Assembly (NCBI RefSeq): GCF_900291475.1
Contig: NZ_OLMM01000004.1
Coordinates: 261,613-325,612 of the forward strand
Reading direction: 5' to 3'
From: Acidaminococcus hominis
GTDB lineage: Bacteria; Bacillota; Negativicutes; Acidaminococcales; Acidaminococcaceae
DNA: 64,000 nucleotides
Shown: positions 3,155-34,327 of the stretch, piece by piece
How the letters are laid out: each line of letters opens with the position of its first letter
Numbering within the stretch: the first letter of the stretch is position 1
Notes under the pieces: generated by a model
Told to the model about the DNA's origin: nothing
Databases searched by the model: none
The model's input: the letters and a program-made list of their open reading frames with translations, nothing else
Position numbers and translations under genes: made by a program

Positions 3155-3256
3155 ACTTATACTCCCTGTAACATTTTATACACTCTGACGTCCATTATAA
3201 GCTTTCCCCGCAGCCGCTGCAATGGATTTTTCCGAAGAAAAAAGGGGGTTGAAAAA

Positions 3257-3640
3257 AACTTCCTCAGTCAGCCATGCTGACTGACAGCTCCTTAGTGGTT
3301 CGCAGCGCTCCAATCAGCCGCGCCCTGCGGGCTTGCTTCTTGGGCTGCTATCACATGGCTCACATTAGCCAAGAGCATTTTGATAAACTGACATGCTCTT
3401 GGATGTGAGCGCAACGCTTGAAGGGGCCGGTCTTAGGCCTATACTGGTCGTGTGCTAAACGTGTGTAGCAAAGCAGCATAGTTCGTAAATACCTGCACTA
3501 ACCCTAGTCTATTACTTGACCAGTAGCGGCATAGAACGCTTCCTGCAAGCGTGTAGGAAGTGTCGCCGCAAGGCGACGATAGAAGTTTAATCAGCACAGC
3601 AGTTTTGAGGTTTGAATCCGGCTATGGCTATAATGAACAA
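3257..3640. repeat. Dispersed hairpin-rich intergenic repeat, copy R1
   Basis: The 527-bp gap between the LOG gene and the Na/Pi transporter is filled mainly by this element. It contains stem-loops CAGTCAG/CTGACTG (about 3266), CCAAGAGCAT/ATGCTCTTGG (about 3369-3400) with an outer stem to GTGAG, an inverted pair TACTGGTC/GACCAGTA (about 3440 and 3520), and GTCGCC-gcaa-GGCGAC (about 3562). It ends GGCTATAATGAACAA, as copy R2 does. No ORF with coding character is present. The modules recur at 13.5 and 33.7 kb, partly inverted. Confidence 0.8.
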
Positions 3641-3668
3641 CAAAAAAGGAGCTGCCGCAGCAGCTCCT
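3641..3668 (-). terminator. Intrinsic terminator of the Na/Pi symporter gene
   Basis: A GGAGCTGC-CGCA-GCAGCTCC hairpin at 3648-3667, followed on the minus strand by a run of six T residues, lies 14 bp past the stop codon. Confidence 0.85.
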
Positions 3669-13490: not shown

Positions 13491-13509
13491 CAGCATAAAA
13501 AACAGGGGC

Positions 13510-13880
13510 TGTGAAAAAATAAAACTTCTATCGTCGCCTACGGCGACACTTCCTACAGTGGTTCGCGGCTAGCTGCTCAGCTGCGTCCTACGGACTTGCT
13601 TTGCAGGCCGCTATCACATGGCTCGCGTATTCCAAACATCTTTTGGATAACTTATGGCGATGTTTGGACGCGAACGCAACGCTTGCAGGAAGCGTTCTAG
13701 ACCTCTACTGGTCAAGTGACAGAGAAGCGTAGTGCTAATATTTACATACCGAGATTTCATTTCAATACTCGTTCAGCACACGACCAGTATGGGCCTAAGG
13801 CCGGCCCATCCAAGCGTGGAGGGGCTGTCAGTCCGCAGGACTGACTGAGGAAGTTTATTAGATACGGCTATAACGAACAA
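13510..13880. repeat. Dispersed hairpin-rich intergenic repeat, copy R2
   Basis: This copy shares outer edges with R1 (GGGG-x-TGTGAAAAAA on the left, GGCTATAACGAACAA on the right). Terminal hairpins GTCGCC-tac-GGCGAC (left) and CAGTCC-gca-GGACTG (right) are swapped and inverted relative to R1. The central hairpin CCAAACATC/GATGTTTGG with outer CGCGT/ACGCG keeps the R1 orientation, with compensatory base changes. The TACTGGTC/GACCAGTA pair is present and inverted. It sits between convergent genes and encodes nothing visible. Confidence 0.8.
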
Positions 13881-13920
13881 AAAATGGCTTGCGAACTCAA
13901 ACTAGTTCACAAGCCATTTT
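13881..13920. terminator. Terminator-like hairpin after the mscS gene and R2
   Basis: A 10-11 bp stem AAAATGGCTTG / CAAGCCATTTT with an extra inner pairing GAACT/AGTTC is flanked by A and T runs. It could act in either direction. Confidence 0.7.
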
Positions 13921-14008
13921 TCACCCCCCTTTTTTATGTCCGTTTTCCTGGTGTCCAGCGTGCCAGGCCATCGCCTATAGCCTGCTGACCCCACAGCCCT
14001 CCTAAAAA

Positions 14009-14306
14009 GTTCTTACCTTGCAAAAAAAGGTAAGAACCAGGTAAGAAAATTTGAAATCTCAGAACCCGCATAGACACTGGGTTTGCGGCTCCTGTTCTTA
14101 CCTTCTTACCTTTCTTACCTACATATAGATATATAAAGAGAAAAATAAAAAAAATAAAATACCCGTCTATCGTTAATTAATATATATATATATATATATG
14201 GGGCTGTATAAAAATAGGTAAGAAGGTAAGAAAAATAGCGCAGAGCAAGGACTGATGCGGGTTTCCAGTTCTTACCTTATGATTTTGAAAGGTAAGAAGG
14301 TAAGAA
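14009..14306. repeat. Cluster of 11 GGTAAGAA octamers around an AT-rich core
   Basis: The octamer GGTAAGAA occurs at 14029, 14040, 14217, 14225, 14291 and 14299. Its complement TTCTTACC occurs at 14010, 14095, 14103, 14112 and 14269. Three tandem copies at 14095-14119 face two tandem copies at 14217-14232 across a core of A/T runs and an alternating TA stretch (14181-14199). The first pair forms an 11-bp inverted repeat (14009-14037). The arrangement resembles replication-origin iterons or a multi-site protein-binding array. No replication protein gene is nearby. Confidence 0.75.
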
Positions 14307-14408
14307 CTTTTAGTAAAGTTGGTATAAAAAATGGAAGCATTATGTTAAATCAGCTCTTAGGTGGTGCAGTCAAGAAACTGCAAGGCAGCCCCTCCCTGCA
14401 CAAAACAA

Positions 14409-30240: not shown

Positions 30241-30260
30241 CCTAGAAAAGGAGGATTACT

Positions 30261-31595
30261 ATGTTTCTTGGTATTGTTGGTTTCCTGATGGTAATCATCA
30301 TCGTGGCAGCCCTGATTCGCGGGAAATCTAACCCCGTACCTCTGTTCGTTATTGTTCCTGTTGTTGCAGCCCTGATTACCGGTTTCACCCCGGATCAAAT
30401 CTTTAAATTCATCACTGCTGGTGTAGGCAAGACTTGGTCCACTGCTGTACTGTTCATTTTCTCCATCGTTTACTTCTCCATGATGGGCGATATGGGCCTG
30501 TTTGACCCGATGGTAAACTGGCTGGTTAAAAAAGCCGGCGACAACATCGTAATGGTCACCATTGCCACTGCCTGCATCGCTGTTATCTCCCACTTGGACG
30601 GCGCTCTGGCTTCCACCCTGCTGATCACCATCCCTGCCATGCTTCCTATTTATAAGAAGCTGCACATGAGACCGGTAGTGCTGGTCTGCATCATTGGTGC
30701 TGCCATGTCCATCATGAACCTGCTGCCTTGGGGCGGCCCTGTTGCCCGTACCGGCGTTGTACTGAACGTCGATGTTAACGCACTGTGGCAGGAACTGATT
30801 CCCCTGCAGGGCGTTGGTCTGGTTATCCTGATGATCTTCGCTGCCTACATGGGTGTTATGGAAAAGCGCCGCGGCGCTGGCCTGAACCCCACTGGCAAGG
30901 CTGCTATGCTGTCTGAAGACGAAGACGAAGGCTCCAAGGACGACAACCTGTCTGCTGACGATGCTGCTTTCATGAAACGCCCGAAGATGATCTGGTTCAA
31001 CGGCCTGCTGACCATCGTAGTTATCGGTCTGCTGTGCTTCACCGACATTCCTCTGTACGGTGCTTTCATGTTCGGTCTGGCCATCGCTTTGATTGCCAAC
31101 TTCCGTACTGCTTCTGAACAAGCAAGAGCTATCAAAATGCATGCTGCTACCGCTCTGACCATGCCTATGATCCTGCTGGCTTCCGGTGTATTCCTGGGTG
31201 TTCTGTCCAAGACCGGCATGATGAAAGCTATGGCACAAATGCTGATTGCTATTGTTCCTGCGGCTCTGGGACCCCATCTGCAAGACGTATTCGGCTTCTT
31301 CGCAGTGCCTATCGGCATGATGCTGGGTACCGACTCCTACTTCTTCGGTCTGCTGCCTCTGGCTATCGGTGTTGGTCAACAGTTCGGTGTTGATCCTCAC
31401 AACATGGCTATGGCTATGCTGATTGGTAAGAACTACGGCGTTATGGTTACTCCTCACGCTGCTACCACCTTCCTGGCCTGCGGCCTGGCTGGTATCTCCA
31501 TCAAAGAACTGCTGAAGTTCTGCACCCCGCGTCTGTGGGTTCTGTCCTGGTTCTCCCTGCTGGGCGGCCTGATGCTGGGTCTGTTCAAATTCTAA
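30261..31595 (+). CDS. CitMHS-family citrate transporter, copy 1
   Basis: A 444-residue polytopic inner-membrane protein of the CitMHS family (citrate-divalent cation/H+ symporters such as B. subtilis CitM). About twelve hydrophobic segments surround a charged loop (SEDEDEGSKDDNLSADD near residue 220). The conserved LLPWGGPVARTGVVL and GTDSYFFGLLPLA segments are present. Position after citDEF supports citrate as substrate. 95% of residues are identical to the second copy at 32.3 kb. The ribosome binding site is AAAGGAGG. Confidence 0.92.
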   Translation: MFLGIVGFLMVIIIVAALIRGKSNPVPLFVIVPVVAALITGFTPDQIFKFITAGVGKTWSTAVLFIFSIVYFSMMGDMGLFDPMVNWLVKKAGDNIVMVTIATACIAVISHLDGALASTLLITIPAMLPIYKKLHMRPVVLVCIIGAAMSIMNLLPWGGPVARTGVVLNVDVNALWQELIPLQGVGLVILMIFAAYMGVMEKRRGAGLNPTGKAAMLSEDEDEGSKDDNLSADDAAFMKRPKMIWFNGLLTIVVIGLLCFTDIPLYGAFMFGLAIALIANFRTASEQARAIKMHAATALTMPMILLASGVFLGVLSKTGMMKAMAQMLIAIVPAALGPHLQDVFGFFAVPIGMMLGTDSYFFGLLPLAIGVGQQFGVDPHNMAMAMLIGKNYGVMVTPHAATTFLACGLAGISIKELLKFCTPRLWVLSWFSLLGGLMLGLFKF

Positions 31596-32184: not shown

Positions 32185-32297
32185 GAATATTGCTATGCTA
32201 AGATTTTAACGAAGTCAAGGGAACCCATCTTACTTCTCCGCTGACCGTGACGGCCCGTCCGGGAAGCCGCATTACACTTTTAAAGGAGGACACTACT

Positions 32298-33632
32298 ATG
32301 TTCTTGGGCGTTGTTGGTTTTTTGATGGTTGTCATCATTGTGGCAGCCTTGATTCGCGGGAAATCTAACCCCGTACCTCTGTTCGTTATTGTTCCTGTTG
32401 TTGCAGCCCTGATCACCGGTTTCACCCCTGCTCAGATCTTCAAATTCATGTCTGCTGGCGTAGGCAAAACCTGGTCCACCGCTGTACTGTTCATTTTCTC
32501 CATCGTTTACTTCTCCATGATGGGCGATATGGGCCTGTTCGACCCGATGGTAAACTGGCTGGTTAAAAAAGCCGGCAGCAACATCGTTATGGTTACCATT
32601 GCTACCGCCTGCATCGCTGTTATCTCCCACTTGGACGGCGCTCTGGCTTCCACCCTGCTGATCACGATTCCTGCTATGCTTCCTATTTATAAAAAATTGC
32701 ATATGAGACCAGTAGTGTTGGTTTGCATCATCGGTGCTGCCATGTCCATCATGAACCTGCTGCCTTGGGGCGGCCCTGTTGCCCGTACCGGCGTTGTACT
32801 GAACGTCGATGTTAACGCACTGTGGCAGGAACTGATTCCCCTGCAGGGCGTTGGTCTGGTTATCCTGATGATCTTCGCTGCCTACATGGGTGTTATGGAA
32901 AAGCGCCGCGGCGCTGGCCTGAACCCCACTGGCAAGGCTGCTATGCTGTCTGAAGACGAAGACGAAGGCTCCAAGGACGACAACCTGTCCGCTGACGATG
33001 CTGCTTTCATGAAGCGTCCGAAGATGATCTGGTTCAACGGCATCCTGACCCTGGTGGTTATCGGCCTGCTGTGCGCTACCGACATTCCTCTGTACGGCGC
33101 TTTCATGTTTGGTCTGGCCATCGCTTTGATTGCCAACTTCCACACTGCTTCTGAACAAGCAAGAGCTATCAAAATGCATGCTGCTACCGCTCTGACCATG
33201 CCTATGATCCTGTTGGCTTCCGGTATTTTCCTGGGCGTTCTGGACAAAACCGGCATGATGAAGGCTATGGCTCAAATGCTGATCGCTATTGTTCCTTCCT
33301 TCATGGGTGCTCACCTGCAAGACATATTCGGTTTCTTCGCAGTACCTATCGGCATGATGCTGGGTACCGACTCCTACTTCTTCGGTCTGCTGCCTCTGGC
33401 TATCGGTGTTGGTCAACAGTTTGGTGTTGATCCGCACAACATGGCTATGGCTATGCTGATTGGTAAGAACTACGGCGTTATGGTTACTCCTCACGCTGCT
33501 ACCACCTTCCTGGCCTGCGGCCTGGCTGGTATCTCCATCAAAGAACTGCTGAAGTTCTGCACCCCGCGTCTGTGGGTTCTGTCCTGGTTCTCCCTGGCAG
33601 CCGGCGCTATGCTGGGCCTGTTCCACCTGTAA
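32298..33632 (+). CDS. CitMHS-family citrate transporter, copy 2
   Basis: A 444-residue paralogue of the gene at 30261, with about 22 amino-acid differences, concentrated at residues 5-52, around the middle (LLTIVVIGLLCF versus ILTLVVIGLLCA), near 310-345 and at the last ten residues. A 257-bp stretch (30696-30952 versus 32733-32989) is identical at DNA level, while neighbouring segments carry clusters of silent changes, suggesting gene conversion. It has its own citDEF-like promoter module. Start ATG 32298 follows AAAGGAGG. Different affinity or metal preference is possible but not shown. Confidence 0.92.
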   Translation: MFLGVVGFLMVVIIVAALIRGKSNPVPLFVIVPVVAALITGFTPAQIFKFMSAGVGKTWSTAVLFIFSIVYFSMMGDMGLFDPMVNWLVKKAGSNIVMVTIATACIAVISHLDGALASTLLITIPAMLPIYKKLHMRPVVLVCIIGAAMSIMNLLPWGGPVARTGVVLNVDVNALWQELIPLQGVGLVILMIFAAYMGVMEKRRGAGLNPTGKAAMLSEDEDEGSKDDNLSADDAAFMKRPKMIWFNGILTLVVIGLLCATDIPLYGAFMFGLAIALIANFHTASEQARAIKMHAATALTMPMILLASGIFLGVLDKTGMMKAMAQMLIAIVPSFMGAHLQDIFGFFAVPIGMMLGTDSYFFGLLPLAIGVGQQFGVDPHNMAMAMLIGKNYGVMVTPHAATTFLACGLAGISIKELLKFCTPRLWVLSWFSLAAGAMLGLFHL

Positions 33633-33719: not shown

Positions 33720-34092
33720 CCTCCAAACGTGGAGGGGCTGGCAGTCCGGAGGACTGACTGAGGAAGTTCAATGCAAAGAGGCCCCTTCAGCGGTTCGCGG
33801 CTCGCTGCGCAGCTTCACCCTACGGGTTTGCTTTGCAGGCCGCTATCGCATGGGCCTTATGGACCAAACAGCCATTTGCAGAATTTGTCGGGCTGTTTGG
33901 ATGCGGCCGCAAAGCGTTGCGCTCACATCCAAGAGCATATCCGTAGTTCAAAATGCTCTTGGTTTATGTGAGCCATGTGATAGCCGTCCGTGATTCCGAA
34001 CCCGAAGGGTGAAGGAGAACGGAGTACGGCGAACCACTGCGGGGCTGGCAGTCCGGAGGACTGACTGAGGTAGTTCAATGCAAAGGGGCCCC
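33720..34092. repeat. Dispersed hairpin-rich intergenic repeat, copy R3 with 44-bp direct repeats
   Basis: Two 44-bp direct repeats (33734-33777 and 34041-34084, one mismatch), each with the CAGTCC-gga-GGACTG hairpin, bracket the element. Inside are a forward hairpin CCAAACAGCC/GGCTGTTTGG and, in opposite orientation, CCAAGAGCAT/ATGCTCTTGG with outer stem GCTCACAT/ATGTGAGC matching R1. Sequence related to GGTTCGCGGCT...GGCCGCTATC of R2 flanks the first hairpin, and its inverse flanks the second. The element sits after citM2 and is convergent with the O-antigen ligase gene. Confidence 0.8.
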
Positions 34093-34327
34093 GACCGTTC
34101 CTATCCACTCGTTTTCCACTTCTTGCTGCTAGCAGGGTCTATGGCCCTCTCCTCTGCCCTTTTAGCCGCTTTCCTGCGGTGCCAGGGGAAATGCCTAAGC
34201 CGCTTTCTTCTCCTGCTGAAGGTCTTCCAAAATGCGTTTTTAAGCGTTCTTGGTTTCTCCCCTACCACCAGGTATTATTCTCTCCCAGCGGCTCTCTCAG
34301 AGCCAATTTGGCGCTGCTTCAGGCAGT
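34093..34327. other. Intergenic stretch with no recognised feature
   Basis: Between R3 and the terminator of the next minus-strand gene. C/T-rich on the plus strand. Open frames here lack ribosome binding sites and coding character. No repeats shared with the rest of the window. Confidence 0.4.

Follow-up and report, generated by a model that had tools for sequence, protein, structure and literature searches.

Introduction

Transposases of the Y1 family move REP sequences and the elements of the IS200/IS605 type. The BOX elements of Streptococcus pneumoniae are modular, form stem-loops, are dispersed and contain no open reading frame (ORF), as do the repeats described here; to our knowledge the sequences are unrelated, and we know of no such inversion or loop nesting among BOX elements. 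In enterobacteria, REP hairpins are the targets of IS1397 and ISKpn1, two insertion sequences of the IS3 family (PMC1525189). In the mitochondria of fungi and sponges, mobile double-hairpin elements consist of two adjacent hairpins with complementary substitutions in their stems (PMC2800124).

Here we analyze R1, a hairpin-rich repeat within a 64,000-nucleotide stretch of Acidaminococcus hominis DNA (the window), together with its relatives R2 and R3. We estimate a probability of roughly 0.7 that R1 is built of non-autonomous mobile DNA hairpins stacked one inside another, with a quasi-palindromic core carrying a second element, the AB unit, in one of its loops, and that the stack is moved in trans.

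Results

Anatomy of R1, R2 and R3

Sequence comparison verified the existence and relatedness of R1, R2 and R3 (3257–3640, 13510–13880 and 33730–34100). Two separate repeats were resolved when parts of R1 were mapped to 56 stretches from the same genome; R1 and R2 are composites of these, a core of ∼211 bp and an AB unit. The core occupies 3257–3587 in R1 and 13523–13855 in R2. The outer edges are common to both and lie in the same orientation, as the initial annotation had reported; they extend R1 to about 3243–3641 and R2 to about 13505–13921. The components are as follows.

3243–3256, + strand: R1 left outer edge, of the E-side type (AAAAAAGGGGGTTGAAAAA), here adjoining the T1 end
3257–3293, + strand: R1 terminal hairpin T1 (AACTTCCTCAGTCAG..CTGACTGACAGCTCCTT), outer half of the left inverted-repeat arm
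3294–3420, + strand: R1 AB unit, two hairpins, mobile, inserted in the T1/C loop
3421–3475, + strand: R1 C arm (GGGGCCGGTCTTAGGCC..TACTGGTC), inner half of the left arm
3476–3518, + strand: R1 core, central spacer
3519–3587, + strand: R1 D arm and E hairpin (GACCAGTA..GTGTCGCC..GGCGACGATAGAAGTT), homologous, inverted, to T1-C
3588–3641, + strand: R1 right outer edge, of the T1-side type (GAGGTTTGAATCCGGCTATGGCTATAATGAACA)
13505–13522, + strand: R2 left outer edge (AGGGGCTGTGAAAAAATA)
13523–13855, − strand: R2 core, with AB in the D/E loop
13557–13685, + strand: R2 AB unit
13856–13921, + strand: R2 right outer edge, containing one terminator-like hairpin (GGCTTGCGAACT..AGTTCACAAGCC-TTTTT)
33734–33785, − strand: R3 first T1-type arm
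33789–33918, + strand: R3 AB unit 1
33911–34038, − strand: R3 AB unit 2, in the opposite orientation and abutting unit 1
34041–34092, − strand: R3 second T1-type arm, sharing 96% identity with the first

R3 thus comprises two AB units arranged tail to tail and flanked by two copies of the T1 arm.

The core (AACTTC...GAAGTT) occurs bare, without AB, in at least seven places of the genome, and AB-bearing and AB-free cores are colinear apart from the AB unit. Comparison of its left half (T1-C) with the reverse-complemented right half (D-E) gives scores of 16 to 28, versus about −5 (SD 4) for shuffled sequence. The two halves are therefore homologous when inverted, making the core a quasi-palindrome with two hairpins per arm. 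The arms carry different stem sequences in the same structural place, CAGTC..GACTG versus GTCGCC..GGCGAC in one pair and CCCCT-CACGCTTG-AGGGG versus TTCCT-CACGCTTG-AGGAA in the second. Both borders of the core are conserved. The T1 side has a terminator-like hairpin (GGCTTGCGAGCT..AGTTCGCAAGCC-TTTTT) and then GTTCGTTATAGCCGTATC; the E side has TTATTTCACAGCCCC. The terminator-like hairpin seen in the right edge of R2 adjoins most chromosomal copies.

The stretches fetched from this genome contain 36 core-like T1...E pairs. Among the 14 cores for which both edges could be typed, 13 share one arrangement, the usual one, and R1 is the only exception, with the reverse: an edge of the E-side type stands beside its T1 end, so that its core is flipped with respect to the edges. 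This clarifies the earlier description of R1 and R2, in which terminal modules were swapped and inverted around a central hairpin of constant orientation. Both parts of that description are correct, as are the compensating stem bases that it quoted. The central hairpin is AB, which lies on the + strand in both R1 (T1/C loop) and R2 (D/E loop) although the two cores are opposed, and the swapped and inverted modules arise from one inversion of the core plus the presence of AB in either loop.

Compared with shuffled sequences, R1 folded as a single DNA has a stability z score of −5.1, and R2 folded as RNA has one of −4.4. In line with the initial annotation, the only ORFs inside R1 are short chance frames (≤52 aa); a 188-aa frame on the antisense strand just meets the left edge. 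Given these short frames and a pattern of covariation unlike codon structure, we reject decayed coding sequence.

Two other repeats were seen in the window. An AT-rich region beside R2 (14001–14317) contains long inverted repeats (GTTCTTACCTTCTTACCTTTC / GAAAGGTAAGAAGGTAAGAAC) and has a second copy (87%) in the same genome (G000:C7:1079763–1080070). Positions 30257–30556 and 32294–32593, separated by 2 kb and within long ORFs, are 91% identical; the ORF at 32247–33632 matches a citrate transporter family.

Copy Number, Distribution and Gene Context

Searches of the genome with R1, R2 and R3 each returned 95 to 110 matching pieces in dozens of places. A covariance model of AB, for which E-values are rough, identified at least 147 copies in a search that scored no more than 150 candidates. 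The initial annotation had been right to relate R1, R2 and R3 to one another, but the three belong to a much larger family. The same model found no copies in eight genomes of the same genus. Two genomes from one genus of Selenomonadaceae yielded 40 and 31 copies, and three from a second genus yielded 24, 14 and 12. A plain DNA search matched 28 of 380 genomes of the class Negativicutes. Among the carriers named in a public collection are Selenomonas, Centipeda and an Acidaminococcaceae metagenome-assembled genome. Relatives of AB are thus class-wide but patchy in gut and mouth Negativicutes.

Our assembly is a draft, sampled as stretches around repeat matches and with gaps at some copies (N runs in L122 and L121); the single-contig assemblies of three carriers (G242, G243 and G136) have the same family. 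The repeats probably break short-read assemblies, and they could mislead RNA-gene annotation. In the stretches fetched, AB density per 100 kb is 21 on contig C8, 10 on C13 and 1.5 to 3.5 elsewhere, so that C8 and C13 possibly represent a repeat-rich chromosomal region or an island. Contig C8 also contains six of the seven IS110 matches in this genome, as well as a 791-bp block present three times in direct orientation, with two AB units in each (L128:2158–4125; G000:C8:66157–68124). In the carrier G242, at least four AB units follow one another head to tail with a 118-bp period (G242:C1:2207354–2207885).

Gene context was assigned by simple ORF picking rather than from curated gene calls. On this basis a single cluster of repeats out of 66 falls within a long ORF, and the clusters are otherwise intergenic; 62 intergenic clusters lie between convergent (24), tandem (23) or divergent (15) genes.

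Structure and Covariation of the AB Unit

AB is a unit of two hairpins, A and B. In A. hominis it starts with AGYGGTTCGC, finishes with CGCA and is about 125–130 bp long, and in Selenomonas its length is about 118 bp. No terminal inverted repeats were seen at its ends (AGYGG.. and ..GCA or ..AGTA). AB can in turn be lodged within hairpin A of another AB unit (for example in L145, L146 and L106), and units occur head to tail as well as in the tail-to-tail arrangement of R3.

We aligned AB copies both by sequence alone (A1) and by fitting to the model (A2), the latter favoring structure. From 45 diverse copies, RNAalifold predicted 40 base pairs, 28 of which show at least one two-sided change. 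Paired cells make up 97.2% of the total, versus 81.4% after shuffling, and two-sided cells number 328 versus 99.5; the covariation signal is lost when the partner is shifted by one base. One pair is G-T in nearly every copy; with it left out, 122 distinct copies give 4424 Watson-Crick, 84 G-U and 51 A-C cells. More than half of the G-U cells (53/84) are confined to two subtype-specific pairs, and any G-U is present at 18 pairs, any A-C at 25.

A constraint acting on RNA should favor G-U over A-C on one strand. Since G-U is no commoner than A-C, the pairing of AB appears to be kept in folded DNA rather than in RNA. These data weigh against the alternative, raised in the initial annotation, that the repeats are structured RNAs. 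On that account they would be duplicated non-coding or regulatory RNAs (3′-UTR terminators, mRNA stabilizers or pre-rRNA processing signals) whose fold is selected in the transcript, which would suit the strong covariation of AB, the terminator-like hairpin beside many cores, the 24 of 62 clusters between convergent genes, and the AB units in rRNA operon spacers, where they must be transcribed. However, AB is found in both orientations, including both within one rRNA spacer, 15 clusters lie between divergent genes, and the unit is wholly absent from the eight genomes of the same genus. Nor did the repeats give a credible match in Rfam, whether at the gathering score or at a relaxed E-value. 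We therefore consider a structured RNA improbable. A hairpin at L128:4794–4848 matches the microRNA family mir-2574 below the gathering score (E = 3e-5), which could reflect a bacterial sequence within that family or a chance similarity between hairpins.

Considered together, the pair counts point to pairing that is held at the DNA level, either by selection on the DNA hairpin or by copying of one arm onto the other. The suggestion that the folded form is selected fits the covariation, but arm copying could explain it as well.

The two hairpins of AB assort almost independently. Among copies, the correlation between hairpin A distances and hairpin B distances is r = 0.18, compared with 0.60 for the two helices inside hairpin B, and where hairpin A differs by no more than 6% between two copies, hairpin B differs by more than 25% in 75 of 173 pairs. 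This supports the proposal that the hairpins are exchangeable blocks.

Empty and Filled Sites

AB units are found within the 23S-5S rRNA spacers of Selenomonadaceae, where rRNA operons inside one genome differ by exactly one unit. In G127, the empty site GACT-TA-TTCTAAG has the filled counterpart GACT-TA-[CTGACC...GACCGC]-TA-TTCTAAG, with an insert of 117 bp. The corresponding inserts are 108 bp in G242 (at GACC-TA-AGTTTCG) and 117 bp in G137 (at GACT-TA-AGTAG). Junctions are ambiguous by 1–2 bp (TA) and show no target duplication beyond this, so that either TA was duplicated or AB was inserted beside a TA that matches the end of the unit. Because the position is homologous across the three genomes, it records precise gain or loss and not necessarily three insertions; one old insertion followed by precise loss, or gene conversion between operons, may have produced the pattern. 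In either case, AB is gained or lost precisely. AB occurs in both orientations, even within one spacer.

In A. hominis, CCCCTCC^ACG is split as CCCCTCC-[AGTGG...GAGCGCA]-ACG with an ambiguity of at most 1 bp. For R1, R2 and R3 no clean empty site was obtained; in same-genus relatives the whole intergenic region corresponding to R2 differs, the flanking genes being separated by a short terminator of unrelated sequence, with no readable boundary. Clean empty sites, one of the checks proposed in the initial annotation, were obtained at the Selenomonadaceae spacers, with at most 2 bp (TA) of possible target duplication, but not at R1–R3.

The presence of TA on both sides of AB at the Selenomonadaceae rRNA sites could indicate ordinary MITEs with decayed inverted repeats, belonging to a DDE transposon (IS630/Tc1-like, with TA target duplication). 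TA ends are common among bacterial MITEs (PMC2229807), and the core has imperfect inverted arms. In contrast, the ends of AB itself (AGYGG..., ...GCA) are not inverted repeats, and its flanks in A. hominis are not TA. No insertion sequence with matching ends was seen in the stretches fetched, and the resident IS3-type element, with ends TGGTGTGCT.. and a 3-bp duplication at the sites read, is unlike AB. We consider this origin unlikely.

The same sites bear on the possibility that the hairpins multiply with no transposition, with quasi-palindromes undergoing template switching during replication, slippage and gene conversion with one another. Such processes predict the two-sided stem changes and the swapping of hairpins, and also the head-to-tail array with its 118-bp period. 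They less readily explain precise AB ends that are constant across families (29 of 38 pattern-matched units from Selenomonadaceae loci are exactly 118 bp) or dispersed sites with unrelated flanks. Precise ends at dispersed sites are hard to obtain without an enzyme that recognizes the ends, and we consider multiplication by these processes alone quite improbable.

At 45 of 101 distinct sites in A. hominis the flanks of AB pair over at least 6 bp, compared with 6% after shuffling, which places AB at the tip of a stem. This applies to only 4 of 28 Selenomonas sites, and with loop siting so weak there we reject a general loop preference across carriers. The preference is a feature of the A. hominis stock, in part probably because AB travels with the core.

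Candidate Mobilizing Enzymes and Resident Insertion Sequences

The Y1 transposase family (PF01797) is absent from the A. hominis genome (99.84% complete) and from the carriers G242, G136, G132, G068 and G271, and we therefore reject mobilization by Y1/RAYT. IS110, which has seven matches in A. hominis, is rejected likewise, being absent from six carriers (G127, G132, G137, G068, G034 and G099). It follows that neither family yields the enzyme, or that the enzyme was lost after amplification.

The A. hominis genome has an IS3-type insertion sequence (HTH_28 and rve; for example L121:403–2270 and L141:2590–4319). Within repeat-containing stretches, the only ones sampled and so a count that would miss copies elsewhere, there are seven full-length copies of its integrase, six 99.6% and one 99.3% identical to a reference copy. 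The junctions read lie mostly in loops of the hairpins described here, as in GCAAGCG^TGGTGTGCT.., where GCG is repeated at the far end. We reject this element as the mobilizer of AB, because its ends (TGGTGTGCT..) differ and it generates a 3-bp duplication where read. A non-exhaustive inspection of the fetched stretches revealed no parent insertion sequence with ends matching AB, and a phage or plasmid origin was rejected for want of a match. The initial annotation had envisaged a palindromic mobile element moved by a transposase in trans. The mobile element is supported by the lack of an ORF, the high copy number, the patchy distribution and the clean empty and filled AB sites, but these searches did not identify the transposase.

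Discussion

The preferred reading of R1, as a stack of mobile DNA hairpins, starts from the observed copy number and spread, the precise presence or absence of AB, both orientations, nesting, hairpin exchange and paired stem changes. We propose that the form recognized and moved would be the folded single strand, as a hairpin or cruciform and probably during replication, and that the mobilizing enzyme would act in trans. A stem mutation may be transferred to the opposite arm through template switching, or selection may eliminate it, and recombination between units, again by template switching or by gene conversion, would swap hairpins and flip cores. We saw no evidence of benefit to the host; as intergenic elements, the repeats may incidentally serve as terminators or transcript stabilizers. 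A more ambitious proposal, which we hold only tentatively and think doubtful in its entirety, is that AB founds a class-wide family of mobile DNA that combines recognition of a folded single strand, duplication-free insertion into hairpins, exchange of whole hairpins, a recombinase other than Y1/RAYT and correction of the palindrome in both arms.

With more than 100 copies in a single genome and many further genomes, these repeats form a large natural data set. It allows DNA-level structure to be separated from RNA structure, and the exchange of hairpins, their nesting and their inversion to be traced. The absence of Y1 from this genome and other carriers raises the question of what else moves palindromic elements. 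The inserts in rRNA operons show that the unit is tolerated in one of the most heavily transcribed loci.

Comparison with Known Systems

Like REP and BIME sequences (RAYT, IS200/IS605-like), the repeats are high-copy intergenic palindromes found in mosaic combinations and in both orientations; AB has at least 147 copies, and a long ORF contains only one cluster among the 66. An IS3-type insertion sequence enters hairpin loops here, as IS1397 and ISKpn1 do in REPs. However, a REP is one stem-loop of about 20–40 bp with an unpaired GTAG or CGTC tag at one end, whereas AB has two hairpins, measures 118–129 bp and has no tag. REPs are also associated with RAYT (Y1), whereas A. hominis and several AB carriers have no Y1.

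MITEs such as Correia/NEMIS, RUP and ERIC (PMC2229807) are likewise short, non-coding, intergenic, mobile and present in many copies, and the TA adjoining the AB ends at Selenomonadaceae rRNA sites and the inverted arms of the core suggest a further resemblance. AB differs in that no terminal inverted repeats and no clear duplication are seen. In addition, both arms here contain covarying hairpins of their own, and in A. hominis AB nests in hairpin loops.

The mitochondrial double-hairpin elements share with AB two hairpins, mobility, paired stem changes and a location in intergenic and rRNA regions, and, as in those elements, the presence of AB at a site is precise and optional. They are shorter and organellar, whereas AB is bacterial, with loops and ends conserved across the class, and the likeness is one of architecture only. 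We found no description of the AB family in the open-licence literature. AB and the core are placed as non-autonomous palindromic mobile DNA, REP/BIME-like or double-hairpin-like, in a variant that is provisionally taken as undescribed.
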